From NCBI RefSeq assembly GCF_013359755.1, contig NZ_JABMCJ010000085.1, forward strand, positions 124,001 through 188,000: a stretch of 64,000 bases of DNA. The letters run 5' to 3'. The DNA comes from Tardiphaga robiniae (GTDB taxonomy: Bacteria > Pseudomonadota > Alphaproteobacteria > Rhizobiales > Xanthobacteraceae). Position numbers and translations under genes: made by a program. Under the pieces are notes generated by a model that worked only from the letters and a program-made list of their open reading frames with translations, was not told where the DNA came from and did not search any database. Shown in pieces: positions 13,750 through 19,840 of this stretch (the stretch's first letter is position 1; every line of letters begins with the position of its first letter).

Positions 13750-14349
13750 ATGACCTTCACGCTTCCCAATCTGCCTTACGCCTATGACGCGCTCGCGCCG
13801 CATATGTCGAAGGAAACGCTGGAATTCCATCACGATAAGCACCATCAGGCTTACGTGACCAACGGCAATAACCTGCTGAAGGGCACCGAATTCGAAGGCA
13901 AATCGCTTGAAGAAATCGTGAAGGGCTCGTTCGGCAAGAATGCCGCGCTCTTCAACAATGCCGGCCAGCACTACAACCATCTCCACTTCTGGAACTGGAT
14001 GAAGCCGAACGGCGGTGGCGACAAGCTACCCGGCCGTCTGGAGAAGAAGATCACCGAGGATCTCGGCGGTCTCGAGAAGTTCAAGACCGACTTCGCCGCT
14101 GCAGGCGTTGGCCAGTTCGGCTCCGGCTGGGCCTGGCTCTCGGTCAAGAACGGCAAGCTGGAAATCTCCAAGACCGCGAACGGCGAAAGCCCGTTGGTCC
14201 ATGGCGCGACCCCGATCCTCGGCGTCGACGTCTGGGAGCACTCCTACTACATCGACTATCGCAACCGTCGTCCCGACTATCTCAAGGCGTTCGTCGATCA
14301 TCTCGTGAACTGGGAATATGTCGACGAGCAGTTCGGCAAGGCGGTCTGA
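13750..14349 (+). CDS. sodB: Fe/Mn superoxide dismutase
   Basis: A 199-residue Fe/Mn-type superoxide dismutase, normal length for the family, which disproportionates superoxide to oxygen and hydrogen peroxide. Metal ligands are visible as His27 (LEFHHDKHH), a His in NNAGQHYNHLHFWNWM, and the Asp and His in GVDVWEHSYYIDYRNRRPDYL. There is no signal peptide, so it is cytosolic. The metal preference cannot be decided from sequence alone; alphaproteobacterial relatives are often annotated SodB. A hairpin terminator follows the stop. Confidence 0.93.
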   Translation: MTFTLPNLPYAYDALAPHMSKETLEFHHDKHHQAYVTNGNNLLKGTEFEGKSLEEIVKGSFGKNAALFNNAGQHYNHLHFWNWMKPNGGGDKLPGRLEKKITEDLGGLEKFKTDFAAAGVGQFGSGWAWLSVKNGKLEISKTANGESPLVHGATPILGVDVWEHSYYIDYRNRRPDYLKAFVDHLVNWEYVDEQFGKAV

Positions 14350-14519: not shown

Positions 14520-14894
14520 ATGAATTATGTTTTGGTTTTTGTCGGCGGCGGCCTTGGCGCCACCTTGCGCCATGTCATCAACATGACCTGCGCTCGCTGC
14601 ATGGGAGCGGCGTTCCCGTGGGGCACCTTCATCATCAACATCACTGGCTCCACGGTGATGGGCCTGATCGCCGGCTATCTCGCTTACAAGGGTGAGGCCT
14701 CGCAGCCCTGGCGCCTGTTCCTGATGACCGGCATCCTCGGCGGCTACACGACGTTTTCGGCCTTTTCACTGGATACGGCAGTGCTCTATGAGCGCGGCGA
14801 ATTGGGCCTCGCCCTGGCCTATGTGCTGGGGTCGGTGGTGCTGTCGATTGCCGGGCTTTTTGCCGGCCTGGCGCTGGTCCGCCACTTCGCCTGA
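14520..14894 (+). CDS. crcB: CrcB/Fluc fluoride channel
   Basis: A 124-residue protein with four hydrophobic helices, the standard length for Fluc subunits, which form dual-topology dimeric fluoride export channels in the inner membrane. Signature segments are GGGLGATLRH at the N-terminus, PWGTFIINITGSTVMG and the GILGGYTTFSAFSLD motif containing the pore Thr/Ser-Phe residues. I looked for the crcB fluoride riboswitch in the preceding 170 bases and did not see its consensus; only a TTGCCGC/GCGGCAA hairpin (about 14457-14482) is present. Confidence 0.9.
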   Translation: MNYVLVFVGGGLGATLRHVINMTCARCMGAAFPWGTFIINITGSTVMGLIAGYLAYKGEASQPWRLFLMTGILGGYTTFSAFSLDTAVLYERGELGLALAYVLGSVVLSIAGLFAGLALVRHFA

Positions 14895-14912: not shown

Positions 14913-14931
14913 TATGTTATAATATAACATA
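14913..14931. promoter_or_regulatory. Zur box of the zinc operon
   Basis: TATGTTATAATATAACATA, a palindrome with nine-base arms around one central base. It matches the core of the known Zur operator (ATGTTATANTATAACAT) almost exactly. A TATAAT -10-like hexamer lies inside it, so bound Zur would block RNA polymerase. It sits 52 bases upstream of the first gene of the zinc operon. Confidence 0.9.
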
Positions 14932-14982
14932 AATGACAGTCAGGCGCGTTGCGCCGGATATTCATTGGCCAGGCCCGATTTC

Positions 14983-15201
14983 ATGGCGCATTCCCATTCT
15001 CACGGTGATGACCACTCCCATGGTCACGCCGACGGCCACGGTCATACCCACAGCCACAGCCATGGCCCGGCAAGCCCTCATCCGGCCCAGCCCGCGCCCT
15101 GGTCGATCCTGCGCATGACGTTGCCCGCACGGCTGGGGGCTGCGCTGGTGGTCTCCGCAGCGCTCTGGGCGGTGGTTCTGCTGGCGATGAGGCCATCATG
15201 A
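14983..15201 (+). CDS. small His-rich membrane-anchored protein of the zinc operon
   Basis: A 72-residue protein, first in the Zur-controlled operon. Residues 1-33 hold 12 histidines in HSHSHG/HGHTHSHSHG-type repeats with Asp and Gly; residues about 48-69 form one hydrophobic helix (LGAALVVSAALWAVVLLAM). Its stop overlaps the znuC start (ATGA), so it is translationally coupled to the transporter. No enzyme motif is present. A role as a membrane-tethered zinc buffer or delivery tail for ZnuB/ZnuC is an inference from composition and position. The ATG at 14983 is chosen; a TTG 18 bases upstream is in frame but less likely. Not a named family that I recognise. Confidence 0.7.
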   Translation: MAHSHSHGDDHSHGHADGHGHTHSHSHGPASPHPAQPAPWSILRMTLPARLGAALVVSAALWAVVLLAMRPS

Positions 15202-15956
15202 CGGCACAGCTCGCTTTCCAGAACGTCACACTGGGCTATGACCGGCATCCGGCGGTGCATCACCTCAATGGCGAGATCGCCGCTGGCAGTTTGCTCGCGG
15301 TGGTCGGGCCGAACGGCGCCGGCAAATCCACGCTGTTTCGCGGCATCGTCGGCATCCTGAAGCCGCTGACGGGCGCGATCACACTTGGCGGCCTGAAGGC
15401 GCGCGACATCGCTTACCTGCCGCAGAGCGTCGATATCGACCGCACATTCCCTATTTCGGTGTTCGACTTCGTCGGCACAGGGCTTTGGCGCACGACCGGG
15501 ATATTCGGCGGCCTTGGCAAGACCGCGCGTGCGCAAATAGGACAGGCGCTCGCCTCTGTCGGCCTCAATGGTTTCGAGAATCGCAATATCGGCACGCTGT
15601 CGGGCGGCCAGATGCAGCGGATGCTGTTTGCGCGGGTGTTGTTGCAGGACGCACGCGTTATCGTGCTCGACGAGCCGTTCAATGCGATCGATACCAAGAC
15701 GTCGGCGGACCTGATTGCGCTGGTGCGCCACTGGCATGCCGAAAAGCGCACGGTGCTGGCGGCGCTGCACGATATGGAGATGGTGCGCTCGCATTTCCCG
15801 GAGACGCTGCTGCTGGCGCGCGGCTCCGTGGCCTGGGGATCGACCCAGCAGGTGCTGACGGCGGATAACCTGCTGGAGGCGCGGCGCATGTGCGAAGCCT
15901 TCGACGATGGCGCCGGCACCTGTGTTGTCGATGCCGCACACTCGCGGGCGGCCTGA
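15198..15956 (+). CDS. znuC: zinc ABC transporter ATP-binding protein ZnuC
   Basis: A 252-residue ABC ATPase. Walker A is VVGPNGAGKSTLFRG, the Q-loop is AYLPQSVDID, the signature is LSGGQMQRMLFARVLLQD, Walker B is VIVLDEPFNAID, and the H-loop His is in LAALHDMEM. These and the position ahead of znuB and znuA mark it as the ATPase of a metal-chelate importer of the ZnuC/SitB/TroB type. Zinc is assigned from the Zur box and the ligand set of the partner binding protein. It overlaps the His-rich gene upstream by four bases. Confidence 0.92.
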   Translation: MTAQLAFQNVTLGYDRHPAVHHLNGEIAAGSLLAVVGPNGAGKSTLFRGIVGILKPLTGAITLGGLKARDIAYLPQSVDIDRTFPISVFDFVGTGLWRTTGIFGGLGKTARAQIGQALASVGLNGFENRNIGTLSGGQMQRMLFARVLLQDARVIVLDEPFNAIDTKTSADLIALVRHWHAEKRTVLAALHDMEMVRSHFPETLLLARGSVAWGSTQQVLTADNLLEARRMCEAFDDGAGTCVVDAAHSRAA

Positions 15957-15961
15957 TCGAC

Positions 15962-16831
15962 ATGCTCTACGATGCGCTGATCGCGCCTTTCCTCGAATTT
16001 GAATTTATGCGCCGCGCATTGGCCGGCGTGGTTGCGCTGGCGCTCGGTGGCGCGCCGATCGGCGTCTTCCTGATGTTGCGGCGGATGAGCCTTGTCGGCG
16101 ACGCGATGGCGCATGCCATCCTGCCAGGGGCTGCGATCGGCTTCCTGTTTTCCGGGCTCAATCTGTTCGCGATGACGTTTGGTGGCCTGATTGCAGGTTT
16201 TTCTGTTGCGCTGCTGGCAGGTCTGGTGTCGCGCGTCACCGTCATCAAGGAAGATGCGTCGCTGGCCGCGTTCTATCTCGTATCACTGGCAGTCGGCGTC
16301 ACCATCGTTTCGATGCGCGGCACCAATATCGATCTGCTGCATGTGCTGTTTGGCAATATTCTCGCACTCGACGATCAGACACTGCTGGTGATCGCGTTCA
16401 ACGCGACGATTACGCTGGTGGTGATGGCGGTGATCTATCGCCCGCTGGTCATCGAATGCGTCGATCCGGTGTTTCTGCGCACTGTCTCGCGCGCCGGTGC
16501 ACCCGCGCATCTGGCGTTTCTGGCGCTGGTCGTCGTTAATCTCGTCAACGGCTTTCATGCGCTCGGTACGCTGCTCGCGGTGGGGCTGATGATCCTGCCG
16601 GCGGGCATCGCGCGGTTCTGGTCGCGCGATATCACGGGGATGATGATGATCTCCGTCGCGAGCGCGATGGTCTCCGGTTACTTCGGTCTGGTGCTGTCGT
16701 TCCAGACCAAGGTGCCGTCCGGTCCCGCGATCATTCTGGTCGCCGCAGTACTCTACGTATTTTCGGTTTTGTTCGGCAATGTCAGTGGCTTGGTAAGGCA
16801 GTTGTTCCCCGGCCGGCATCTTGAGGCGTAG
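15962..16831 (+). CDS. znuB: zinc ABC transporter permease ZnuB
   Basis: A membrane permease of about 289 residues with 8-9 hydrophobic helices, of the ABC-3 family. Typical segments are LGGAPIGVFLMLRRMSLVGD with AMAHAILPGAAIGFLF, LLHVLFGNILALDD, and LLAVGLMILPAGIARFWSRD. The ATG at 15962, five bases after the znuC stop, is the natural start; a longer frame opening at 15890 would overlap znuC and add an Arg-rich non-family N-terminus. It forms the inner-membrane channel with ZnuC. Confidence 0.92.
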   Translation: MLYDALIAPFLEFEFMRRALAGVVALALGGAPIGVFLMLRRMSLVGDAMAHAILPGAAIGFLFSGLNLFAMTFGGLIAGFSVALLAGLVSRVTVIKEDASLAAFYLVSLAVGVTIVSMRGTNIDLLHVLFGNILALDDQTLLVIAFNATITLVVMAVIYRPLVIECVDPVFLRTVSRAGAPAHLAFLALVVVNLVNGFHALGTLLAVGLMILPAGIARFWSRDITGMMMISVASAMVSGYFGLVLSFQTKVPSGPAIILVAAVLYVFSVLFGNVSGLVRQLFPGRHLEA

Positions 16832-16833
16832 GT

Positions 16834-17724
16834 GTGTCAGTCATGCGGAAATCCAGCATATTCGTCCTTTCTGCTGTCCTGTCGCTTGTCACGGCGATCG
16901 TCCCGGCGCGGGCGCAGGACAAGATCGATGTCGTCGCCAGCTTCTCTATCCTCGGTGACTTCGTGCGCAATGTCGGGGGCGAGCGAGTCGCTGTAACGAC
17001 CCTGGTCGGCCCGAATGGGGATGCGCATGTCTACACACCGACGCCGCGTGACGCGAAAAAGATCGCCGATGCGAAGCTTGTGGTGGTCAATGGCCTCGGC
17101 TTCGAAGGCTGGCTGCCGCGGTTGGTGAAATCATCGGGTGGTAAGGCTGTCATCGTCACCGCAACCCAGGGCATCGCACCGCGCAAGCTCGACTCGCACG
17201 AGGATCCGCACGCCTGGCAATCGGTGGGCAATGCCAAGGTCTATGTCGCAAACATTCGCGATGCGCTGGCCAAGGCCGATCCGGCCGGGGCCGACATCTA
17301 CAAGGCGAACGCCGAGGCCTATCTCGCGAAGCTGACTGCCCTCGACAGTGACGTGAAGGCGGCTGTGGCTTCCATCCCCGCGGCGCACCGCAAGGTGATC
17401 TCGACCCATGATGCCTTCGGCTATTTCGCGGCGGCCTATGGTATCGAATTCATCGCGCCGCAGGGCGTTTCGACGGATTCCGAGCCCAGCGCCAAGGATA
17501 TCGCGGTCATCATCACTCAGCTCAAGATCTCGAAAATTCCGGCGGTTTTTCTGGAAAACATCGCCGATCCCCGGCTGATGCGCCGGATCGCCGCCGAGAC
17601 CGGGGCAAAAATCGGCGGAACGCTGTATTCGGACAGTCTGACGGCCGAAAACGGCGATGCACCCACTTACATTGATATGGTCAGGCACAATATAAAGGCG
17701 CTGACGAGCGCGCTGACCAGTTAG
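16834..17724 (+). CDS. znuA: zinc ABC transporter periplasmic binding protein
   Basis: A 296-residue cluster A-I binding protein with a signal peptide (cleavage near VPARAQ). The expected ligands are three His and one Asp: GDAHVYTPTP, EDPHAW, ISTHDAFGYF and YSDSL. The His in the third position, where manganese proteins carry Glu, supports zinc. It lacks the long His/Asp-rich loop of classical ZnuA and so resembles AztC-type proteins. That function may be supplied by the separate His-rich peptide at the head of the operon (inference). It starts two bases after the znuB stop; a Met three residues in (MRKSS) is an alternative start. Confidence 0.9.
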   Translation: MSVMRKSSIFVLSAVLSLVTAIVPARAQDKIDVVASFSILGDFVRNVGGERVAVTTLVGPNGDAHVYTPTPRDAKKIADAKLVVVNGLGFEGWLPRLVKSSGGKAVIVTATQGIAPRKLDSHEDPHAWQSVGNAKVYVANIRDALAKADPAGADIYKANAEAYLAKLTALDSDVKAAVASIPAAHRKVISTHDAFGYFAAAYGIEFIAPQGVSTDSEPSAKDIAVIITQLKISKIPAVFLENIADPRLMRRIAAETGAKIGGTLYSDSLTAENGDAPTYIDMVRHNIKALTSALTS

Positions 17725-17774
17725 CGCAGGGGCCCCCTGCTGCCGGCGCTGCACAAGACCCCGCCGGAGAGATC

Positions 17775-18818
17775 ATGTCTGAAGCGACTGCCAACAAAAT
17801 TCCCGTGACCGTGCTGACCGGCTATCTCGGCGCCGGCAAGACCACGCTGTTGAACCGCATCCTGTCGGAAAATCACGGAAAGAAATACGCTGTGATCGTC
17901 AACGAATTCGGCGAGATCGGCATCGACAACGATCTCATCATCGGCGCCGATGAAGAAGTGTTCGAGATGAACAACGGCTGCGTCTGCTGCACCGTGCGCG
18001 GCGACCTCGTGCGCATTCTCGACGGTCTCATGAAGCGCAAGGGCAAGTTCGACGCGATCATCGTGGAGACCACGGGTCTCGCCGATCCCGCGCCGGTGGC
18101 GCAGACCTTCTTCGTCGACGAAGACGTGCAGGCCCATGCACGGCTCGATGCCGTCGTGACCGTGGCCGATGCCAAATGGCTGAGCGACCGCCTTAAGGAT
18201 GCGCCGGAAGCCAAGAACCAGATCGCCTTCGCCGACGTCATCGTGCTGAACAAGATCGATCTTGTGTCGAAGGCTGAGCTCGCCGAAGTCGAGGCGCGCA
18301 TTCGCGCCATCAACCCCTATGCGAAGCTGCACAAGACCGAACGCGCGCAGGTGAAGCTGTCCGACGTCCTGGAGCGTGGCGCCTTCGATCTCGATCGTAT
18401 TCTGGAGATCGAACCGGAATTCCTCAACGCGGACGACGGTCACGATCATCATGACCACGATCACGGCCATCATCACCATCATGATCACGGCCACGGTGGT
18501 CTGAAGCACTATCACGACGAGGATATGCACTCGATGTCGCTGCGTACCGACAAGGCGCTCGATGCATCGACCTTCATGCCGTGGCTGCAGGATCTGATGG
18601 CCAAGGAGGGCGGCAAGATTTTGCGCTCCAAAGGTATCCTGTCGTTCTCCGGCGACGACGACCGCTACGTGTTTCAGGGCGTGCACATGATGCTCGAAGG
18701 CGATCATCAGCGGCCGTGGAAGGACGGCGAGAAGCGCGAAAGCCGTCTTGTCTTTATCGGTCGCGATCTGCCCGAGCAGCTGATCCGCGACGGCTTCGAA
18801 CGCTGCATCCCCGCCTGA
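17775..18818 (+). CDS. COG0523-family (CobW/ZigA-like) zinc GTPase with His-rich insert
   Basis: A 347-residue G3E GTPase. Walker A GYLGAGKTTLLNRIL, the metal-site CxCC motif in NNGCVCCTVRGDL, switch segment VETTGLADPAPVA and base-recognition NKID are all present. A His/Asp-rich insert (about residues 223-255, 15 histidines) precedes the C-terminal CobW_C domain. In the family, Zur-regulated members (ZigA, YeiR, ZagA, ZNG1) bind zinc and deliver it to client proteins in zinc shortage. Position 50 bases after znuA places it in the zinc regulon. The spacer holds a 15-base perfect palindrome (GCAGGGG-C-CCCCTGC). The TGATG junction couples it to the WD40 gene. Confidence 0.9.
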   Translation: MSEATANKIPVTVLTGYLGAGKTTLLNRILSENHGKKYAVIVNEFGEIGIDNDLIIGADEEVFEMNNGCVCCTVRGDLVRILDGLMKRKGKFDAIIVETTGLADPAPVAQTFFVDEDVQAHARLDAVVTVADAKWLSDRLKDAPEAKNQIAFADVIVLNKIDLVSKAELAEVEARIRAINPYAKLHKTERAQVKLSDVLERGAFDLDRILEIEPEFLNADDGHDHHDHDHGHHHHHDHGHGGLKHYHDEDMHSMSLRTDKALDASTFMPWLQDLMAKEGGKILRSKGILSFSGDDDRYVFQGVHMMLEGDHQRPWKDGEKRESRLVFIGRDLPEQLIRDGFERCIPA

Positions 18819-19840
18819 TGATGTCCGATTTCAATCCGCTGCAGGAGCAGGAATCCATCGTTTCGGTCACCGACCGCGTGTTGCCGGTGGCCATCGGTGC
18901 GTCGGTCACATCAGTGCATTTTCTCGGCGACAAGGCTGCCTTTGTCGGCGCCGAGGAGAAGGTGACGCTGGTCGATCCGGCAGGCGCGATGTCGCCGGTC
19001 GAGGTCGCGTTCGGTGGCATCCTGTGCTCGACCTCCGACGGCAAGCGCATCGTGATGGGCTGCGACGACGGCAAGGTCGTCGTGCTCGACCGCGACGGCA
19101 CAGTCTCGACCTTTGCGACCGACGCCAAGAGGCGCTGGATCGACAGTGTAGCTTTGCATCCCGACGGCGCTGTTGCGTGGTCGGCGGGCAAGACGGCCTT
19201 CGTGCAGGCGCCGAAGGGCGAGGTGAAATTCTTCGAGGTGCCATCGACCGTTGGCGGCCTTGCATTCGCGCCCAAAGGGCTGCGGCTTGCGATAGCCCAC
19301 TACAATGGCGTGACGCTGTGGTTTCCCAACATGGCCGGCAATGCCGAAGTGCTGGAATGGGCCGGTTCGCATCTCGGCGTGACCTTCAGCCCGGACAACA
19401 AGTTTCTGGTCACCGCGATGCATGAGCCGGCGCTACATGGCTGGCGTCTCGTCGACGGCAAGCACATGCGCATGACCGGCTATCCCGCACGCGTGCGCTC
19501 GATTTCCTGGAGCGCCGGCGGCAAGGGTCTCGCGACCTCGGGCGCCGATACGGTCATCATCTGGCCGTTTGCCAGCAAGGACGGCCCGATGGGCAAGGAG
19601 CCGGCGATGCTGGCGCCGCTCAAGGCCAAGGTCACCATGGTGGCCTGTCATCCCAAGCAGGACATTCTGGCCGCCGGTTACAGTGACGGCACTATCCTGA
19701 TGGTTCGCATGACCGATGGCGCGGAAATTCTGGTGCGGGCCAACAAAGGGCAGCCCGTCAGCGCGCTGGCCTGGAATGCCAAGGGTACGCTGCTGGCTTT
19801 TGCCGATCAGGACGGCGACGCCGGGCTGCTGGAGCTGTAG
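18818..19840 (+). CDS. cytosolic WD40 beta-propeller protein linked to the zinc GTPase
   Basis: A protein of about 340 residues made of repeated WD40-like blades. Each blade has a GH/SD-type turn and a hydrophobic strand ending, for example LCSTSDGKRIVMGCDDGKVV, LGVTFSPDNKFLVTAMHEPA, VRSISWSAGGKGLATSGADT and VSALAWNAKGTLLAFADQDG. About seven blades are expected, which would close a propeller. No signal peptide is seen, so it is not a periplasmic AztD-type zinc chaperone. Its start overlaps the GTPase stop (TGATG), implying coupled synthesis and perhaps a complex. Such scaffolds usually bind proteins; a role as adaptor or client for the zinc GTPase is inference. ATG at 18818 or 18821. Confidence 0.8.
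   Translation: MMSDFNPLQEQESIVSVTDRVLPVAIGASVTSVHFLGDKAAFVGAEEKVTLVDPAGAMSPVEVAFGGILCSTSDGKRIVMGCDDGKVVVLDRDGTVSTFATDAKRRWIDSVALHPDGAVAWSAGKTAFVQAPKGEVKFFEVPSTVGGLAFAPKGLRLAIAHYNGVTLWFPNMAGNAEVLEWAGSHLGVTFSPDNKFLVTAMHEPALHGWRLVDGKHMRMTGYPARVRSISWSAGGKGLATSGADTVIIWPFASKDGPMGKEPAMLAPLKAKVTMVACHPKQDILAAGYSDGTILMVRMTDGAEILVRANKGQPVSALAWNAKGTLLAFADQDGDAGLLEL

Follow-up and report, generated by a model that had tools for sequence, protein, structure and literature searches.

What does the first gene of a zinc import operon contribute when its product is only a short membrane protein with a single helix? The question is raised by a 64,000-nucleotide (nt) stretch of DNA from Tardiphaga robiniae (hereafter the window), in which a Zur-type operator is followed, after 51 nt, by six tightly packed genes on the + strand, the last ending at 19840. 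These encode the small protein, the three parts of a zinc ATP-binding cassette (ABC) importer, a COG0523 GTPase and a WD40 propeller. We found that the small gene accompanies the ATPase gene of related importers, and its product is, judged from sequence, probably an accessory subunit of what we call a ZniCBA-type importer. The fuller reading, a Zur-controlled operon for zinc import and distribution that is built of two separable conserved modules, has the small protein as an accessory subunit of the permease and works as proposed below, has in our estimate a probability of roughly 0.62. The features, in window coordinates, are the following.

14913-14931, no strand assigned: Zur-type operator, a 19-bp palindrome, TATGTTATAATATAACATA (motif search)
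14983-15201, + strand: small membrane protein, 72 amino acids, ATG start (open reading frame (ORF) reading)
15198-15956, + strand: ATPase of a zinc ABC importer, AztA/ZniC type (NCBIfam AztA, 214.9 bits)
15962-16831, + strand: permease of a zinc ABC importer, AztB/ZniB type (NCBIfam AztB, 261.4 bits; permease trees)
16843-17724 (or from a GTG at 16834), + strand: zinc-binding protein, AztC/ZniA type (NCBIfam AztC, 309.6 bits; PDB matches)
17775-18818, + strand: COG0523 (CobW-type) GTPase with an internal His-rich stretch (Pfam cobW, CobW_C)
ATG at 18818 or 18821 to 19840, + strand: WD40 propeller (Pfam WD40; AlphaFold2 model; Foldseek)

The sequence-only reading had named the transporter genes znuCBA, an identity that did not hold. 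The Azt models of NCBIfam are the best for all three genes, yet each scores under its curated cut-off, with 214.9 bits for AztA (cut-off 220), 261.4 for AztB (280) and 309.6 for AztC (350), so that ATPase, permease and binding protein all fall outside AztABCD by these cut-offs. ZnuABC is ruled out by far lower scores (PRK09544, 95.3/306 bits; PRK09543, 81.2/284; PRK09545, 70.5/268), and ZnuA also by comparison with the PDB, where the binding protein matches E. coli ZnuA at 6e-12 versus 1.9e-81 for AztC (5kzj). Klebsiella pneumoniae ZniA (8svc, 3.5e-80) is second only to AztC in this comparison. In the window translation the binding protein is ZniA-like and has no His-rich loop, as is characteristic of the ZniCBA type; the loop is also short in a 94% identical relative (L031). 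Because the Azt models lead while staying under their cut-offs and the binding protein is nearest AztC and ZniA, we therefore call the predicted transporter ZniCBA-type. Pfam and NCBIfam support the domain assignments of the operon genes. The operon propeller is not AztD, and no AztD match occurs in the near-identical relatives L031-L034. In the available sections of the respective papers, ZniCBA is a zinc importer of K. pneumoniae that is raised under zinc shortage (PMC10797113), and in Rhizobium leguminosarum its expression depends on zinc and Zur, with a Zur box 153 bp 5' of zniC (PMC12183173). On those sections, that distance leaves room for a small gene. An RND efflux system of Cupriavidus metallidurans also goes by the name ZniCBA but is unrelated.

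How closely, then, is the small gene tied to this importer? It ends beside the ATPase start in 244 of the 260 evaluable AztD-free loci and occurs in alpha-, beta- and gammaproteobacteria, the ORF ending between about -162 and +16 nt around the ATPase start inferred from alignment. The locus sets share species and their counts are not independent; by set, the figures are 24/24 evaluable loci of the same family, 91/96 class-wide (joint run), 77/77 evaluable loci of named genomes, 10/12 AztD-free loci of a plasmid collection, and 42/51 loci of the phylum outside the class by either profile (40/51 by the seed profile). All sequences in the seed profile came from within the class, some of them from class-set genomes, and it is for this reason that the phylum set serves as the independent test.

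The sets were assembled as follows. A first class-wide search with an alignment of 18 relatives gave matches in 30 of 385 genomes, and 20 of these 30, the window's own included, lay on the same strand as an ATPase homologue and adjoined it; 14 of the 20 had no His-rich stretch. A search based on the permease returned 109 places in 108 of the 385 class genomes. Of these, 100 entered the class set; the nine others were the place in the window itself, a fragment at a contig edge and seven with scores among the lowest. In the 96 class-set loci with an adjacent ATPase, the seed profile detected 80 peptides, and iteration raised this to 90. All 52 places found in 51 genomes outside the class were taken as the phylum set (51 evaluable), the named set comprised the best 80 of at least 592 relatives (77 evaluable), and the same-family set consisted of 40 loci fetched around the WD40 gene (24 evaluable). 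From the plasmid collection, 22 of 43 records were taken, and 10 of the 22 carry the peptide. Two of its records, CP125156.1 (5.4 Mb) and NZ_CP119142.1 (2.2 Mb), are of a size that suggests chromosomes, and CP125156.1 carries recA and alaS.

Controls were run at E 0.01. There were no matches on the reverse strand (class, named and phylum sets), none among 1,326 ORFs at the locus ends of the class set, and none among 2,615 ORFs in the 30 best loci of a ZnuB model, only 6 of which exceed that model's cut-off; the peptide was present in 0/30 of these loci. Away from the expected site, the seed profile matched 0/19,338 ORFs in the named set, 0/9,916 in the family set, 0/7,557 in the phylum set, 2/17,780 in the class set and 1/5,210 in the plasmid set, that is, 3/40,463 outside the named set. 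Two of the three off-site matches are meaningful and are described below. The peptide is tied to the transporter and not to the six-gene module, as other classes have it without nearby GTPase or WD40 genes. A K. pneumoniae record with the importer locus between mltB and pncC also carries the small ORF (L203). Because the transporter is the peptide's only constant neighbour, an accessory subunit is the strongest inference from these data.

Is the small gene under selection as a protein? The window peptide, 12 of whose 72 residues are His, joins a His-rich N-terminus to a conserved single-helix core: SILRMTLPARLGAALVVSAALWAVVLLAMRPS. The same arrangement of a variable His-rich beginning and a constant end appeared when 18 relatives were aligned. 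Family members as read here, with start codons chosen by rule, span 28-95 amino acids (median 53.5). The Arg before the helix is invariant and a Trp is conserved at 94%, in an alignment fitted to the profile and thereby somewhat favouring conservation. The helix is hydrophobic, with a mean Kyte-Doolittle value of 2.27 and 98% of values above 1.6. Within the 29-codon core, dN/dS is about 0.25 and 57% of differences fall at third codon positions (491 pairs, up to 25% different, from 64 unique sequences). The 71-amino-acid form without the first Met matched nothing in Pfam or NCBIfam at E 0.001. Scans extended to E 1 gave chance-level scores far under the cut-offs, the best being a His-rich serine-rich model (0.026) and DUF5134 (0.027 in 3/18 members), and no family fits. 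None of the literature matches listed concerned a zinc ABC importer with a small subunit. In the annotation of the 10 plasmid-collection loci that have the peptide, the gene is hypothetical or uncharacterised in three (Skermanella, 46 amino acids; Comamonas, 46; Klebsiella aerogenes, 35), missing from the gene table in four, and without any gene table in three, the collection's gene table being incomplete by its own description.

These properties bear on whether the gene is instead a translated leader, whose overlapping stop couples translation of the ATPase or whose helix brings the messenger RNA to the membrane, with a product that has no role in the transporter. Such a leader would agree with the short products and with the overlaps or very short gaps to the ATPase gene, which are common. 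We nevertheless consider it unlikely, given the dN/dS value, the conservation of Arg and Trp far outside the family, and loci in which the gene ends 30-160 nt before the ATPase. Two displaced copies also speak against it. In L175, an intact peptide is encoded about 1 kb 5' of the ATPase, with a DMT-like ORF (identified by reading) in between. In L209 (Bradyrhizobium sp. 172 plasmid p172_1, 6787-8130), the helix forms the N-terminus of a 447-amino-acid NxxGxxAF-repeat protein (NCBIfam TIGR05002, Pfam DUF7453), whose gene lies about 5 nt behind the binding-protein gene at a locus without a separate peptide; the annotated start of this gene leaves out the helix. Six Bradyrhizobium plasmid records encode the fusion protein, with at least 99% identity, and because of that identity the six count as one event. 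Such a fusion would be expected if the helix has its place at the importer, the N-terminus lying inside and everything after the helix outside; the repeat domain could be another type of outside partner. Together, the fused and the displaced copy make the accessory-subunit reading somewhat more likely and the leader less so.

What, then, is the role of the His-rich beginning? Lys and Arg are more numerous before the helix than after it in 194 of 202 peptides (two reversed, six ties), and the N-terminus is accordingly predicted to be cytosolic. At least five His are found in 94 of the 202, while 90 have none or one. The His-rich stretch is therefore best read as a lineage-specific decoration on a conserved small protein. 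This modifies the earlier idea of a dedicated His-rich peptide of the six-gene module: the peptide did prove to be a conserved one-helix protein, but one that is linked to the transporter and often poor in His. We also doubt that the His-rich peptide serves as a metal buffer and keeps a zinc store at the membrane without contacting the importer. The 12 His of the window peptide and the 94 His-rich relatives would suit a buffer, whereas the 90 His-poor peptides retain both the core and the position of the gene.

A third proposal, in which the His-rich tail stands in for the His-rich loop that the binding protein lacks, implies a periplasmic N-terminus. His in the peptide and His in the loop are negatively related over the 153 loci with a readable loop (rho -0.32). 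The relation is absent from the class-wide set (rho 0.04, n = 56) and probably reflects shared ancestry, so compensation between the two is not supported; with the charge distribution placing the N-terminus inside in 194/202, replacement of the loop is highly improbable. Loci with the GTPase-WD40 pair have His-rich peptides more often than loci without it, both in the class set (4/12 versus 7/79, p 0.035) and in the named set (51/54 versus 9/23), but because lineages are shared, we draw no conclusion from this association.

A further line of evidence comes from AztD-carrying importers. There are 10 such loci, every one in the plasmid collection, and the peptide is missing from each. The 10 permeases form a single clade (support 1.0), nested in a larger group (93 permeases, 80 of them from loci with the peptide; support 0.99) in a tree that was rooted with six ZnuB sequences and has several weak deeper nodes. 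An exact test of AztD against the peptide gives p 3e-13, which is overstated since the AztD loci are one clade, and for the same reason the exclusion represents one evolutionary event and not ten. The simplest reading of the tree is that the peptide was ancestral, was lost once toward AztD and a second time in one family, and is missing in scattered further cases. The second loss corresponds to a clade of eight permeases with support 1.0 (L370, L374, L376, L377, L379, L380, L383 and L385), with no small gene and no AztD in the stretch examined. Four of the eight were examined for a helix ORF before the ATPase; three have none, and that of the fourth runs into the ATPase frame. Separately, three rhizobial azt loci (L202, 8052-8363; L295, 7600-7887; L296, 7593-7886) have a GTPase gene 3' of aztC and, directly behind it, a gene for a hypothetical protein of ~95-103 amino acids that is perhaps another small partner.

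Several observations weigh against an accessory subunit or limit it. The peptide is missing beside the ATPase in 16 of the 260 AztD-free loci. Two of these carry it elsewhere, and the other 14, eight of which are the one clade just described, have none in the stretch examined, so the small gene is dispensable there. The profile is not perfectly specific, as the remaining off-site match (L158, E 0.0039) is probably chance, and one counted match is borderline (L199, 0.012). The His tail is not general, as the 90 His-poor peptides indicate; L052, a member of the family, has a single His and retains the core. Coevolution between columns of the peptide and the transporter is no more than suggestive, the highest-scoring pair being one of peptide and permease (z 7.1 at an effective depth of 93). 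Finally, in the available sections of PMC10797113, the binding-protein gene alone restored zinc uptake in binding-protein mutants of K. pneumoniae, a complementation that neither needs nor tests the small gene.

Is the operon a single zinc-responsive unit? The palindrome of the operator is perfect, with an exact core TGTTATAATATAACA at 14915-14929, and 0.08 matches to the Zur motif are expected in the window with up to three mismatches. Across the 6.3-Mb genome, with up to two mismatches, a Zur box occurs at three places, one of them as two overlapping boxes, and a reversed control pattern has no match in the same genome at the same setting. Among the other two places, the first (L304, C5:240459) lies beside genes for a 147-amino-acid protein and a TonB-dependent receptor, and the second, with the overlapping boxes (L305, C80:34659), precedes a 403-amino-acid ZigA-like COG0523 GTPase (all named from translations). 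The genome also encodes a Fur-family protein (L309) that, by its sequence, reads like Zur. With the operator and this Zur-like protein, the operon is predicted to be a member of the Zur regulon.

The gene junctions are as tight as the sequence-only reading had described. The small gene and the ATPase gene overlap as ATGA, the GTPase and WD40 genes as TGATG, and the gaps in between are 5 nt (ATPase to permease), 2 or 11 nt (permease to binding protein, with two possible starts) and 50 nt (binding protein to GTPase). The six genes are presumably co-transcribed under the control of Zur. The best upstream site in the 77 named relatives matches at least 15 of 19 positions in 43 loci, 13-14 in 13 and 12 or fewer in 21, compared with 0, 1 and 76 for shuffled upstream sequence of the same loci; sites are thus uneven across relatives, with none convincing by the 19-position score in 21/77. 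The surrounding genes include a superoxide dismutase-like gene (by reading, 13750-14349) and crcB for a fluoride exporter (14520-14894), which both precede the operon, and mgtC, which begins 96 nt 3' of it. crcB is syntenic in most same-genus loci fetched, and crcB and mgtC are often syntenic in the genus. We see no reason to count crcB and mgtC in the operon.

The last two genes appear to be a module of their own. The GTPase belongs to COG0523 by Pfam cobW and CobW_C, a P-loop (GYLGAGKTT) and the motif GCVCC, and its C69, C71 and C72 are conserved in relatives. The protein encoded next is a WD40 propeller by Pfam (PF00400 and PF12894 over cut-off), by an AlphaFold2 model with pLDDT 93.5, and by Foldseek matches that are WD40 propellers such as Rsa4 and ODA16; no signal peptide is evident in its sequence. 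Read from 18821 to 19840, the propeller has conserved residues H160, H184, H206 and H277 and a conserved stretch around LHGWRL, which could bind metal or the GTPase. A strong relative (E below 1e-80) was present in 41 of the 61 genomes searched, its own included, and in 34 of 40 fetched loci, some of which have no transporter, the GTPase gene lies directly 5' of the WD40 gene. The neighbourhood is conserved beyond this strain, as comparison with relatives could have denied: the order peptide-A-B-C-GTPase-WD40 recurs in 24/24 evaluable same-family loci, although not always contiguously. A same-strand pair accompanies the importer in 24/24 same-family, 54/77 named and 12/91 class-wide peptide-bearing loci and in two plasmid records (Skermanella and Gemmobacter). 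It was found in 0/52 loci outside the class, for which about 3 kb downstream was covered, and the module was found here only in alphaproteobacterial loci. Because the GTPase-WD40 pair and the importer with its peptide also occur separately, the operon joins two modules.

We also weighed whether the WD40 protein could be the cytosolic equivalent of the zinc chaperone AztD, handing zinc to a partner. Both propellers are encoded near an Azt/Zni transporter, the four His are conserved, and blastp weakly relates the WD40 protein to one AztD (31% over 101 amino acids, E 0.001). For homology to AztD there is this weak match alone, and homology was rejected. Since the WD40 protein has no NCBIfam match, no evident signal peptide and no AztD among the best 50 of 1,999 Foldseek matches, and is linked to the GTPase even in loci without a transporter close by, we regard such a counterpart as very unlikely.

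How might the whole work with the small protein as an accessory subunit? One module would be the ZniCBA-type ABC importer with the one-helix protein, encoded just before the ATPase gene and often overlapping it; the other would be the COG0523 GTPase with the WD40 propeller. Under zinc shortage, Zur would leave the operator, and the binding protein and the ABC proteins would bring zinc in. We infer that the small protein forms a complex with the permease, lies next to it with a cytosolic N-terminus, and would stabilise or gate it. In the window's lineage, the His-rich tail might take up the emerging zinc near the co-encoded pair, and the His-rich GTPase might pass it on to client proteins, the WD40 protein serving as its adaptor. 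This His relay is the bolder idea and is restricted to lineages that have the tail. Bolder still, and offered tentatively, is a four-component ZniCBA with an ancestral helix subunit, lost in the AztD clade, that gates or stabilises the permease; in Bradyrhizobium and relatives a cytosolic His tail would hand zinc to the GTPase and WD40 proteins, and on some Bradyrhizobium plasmids the helix would anchor an outside repeat domain.

If the small protein is indeed a subunit, reconstitutions and mutants of 'ZniCBA' would miss a component. Its absence from the AztD clade offers a simple marker that separates ZniCBA from AztABCD, as well as a testable idea of what AztD replaced. Lineages with a His tail beside the zinc GTPase would allow a direct test of whether zinc, once imported, is passed on or released free, a question that concerns COG0523 proteins.

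KdpF is a very short single-helix transporter subunit that is encoded in the operon of its transporter. The likeness of the small protein to KdpF is one of description, the window having an ABC zinc importer and, in some lineages, a His-rich tail. Closer at hand is ZniCBA itself, which like the window system has a ZniA-type binding protein without a His-rich loop. The available sections of the ZniCBA papers (PMC10797113, PMC12183173) name three genes and do not mention a small ORF, and in the window operon GTPase and WD40 genes follow. From AztABCD of Paracoccus (PMC6689063, available in part), whose models are nearest to the window ATPase, permease and binding protein, the operon differs in having a small membrane protein instead of AztD. 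Prokaryotic COG0523 subfamily 5 genes are reported to cluster with WD40, znuABC and creatinase genes, several of them behind predicted Zur sites (Haas et al. 2009, PMC2770081); the available portion of that account does not mention a small membrane gene, and it is by its WD40 neighbourhood alone that the operon GTPase fits subfamily 5. The earlier suggestion that the locus had not been described as a unit is accordingly narrowed, since the available portion of the 2009 report covers the association of GTPase, WD40, znuABC and Zur. The new element is the first gene.

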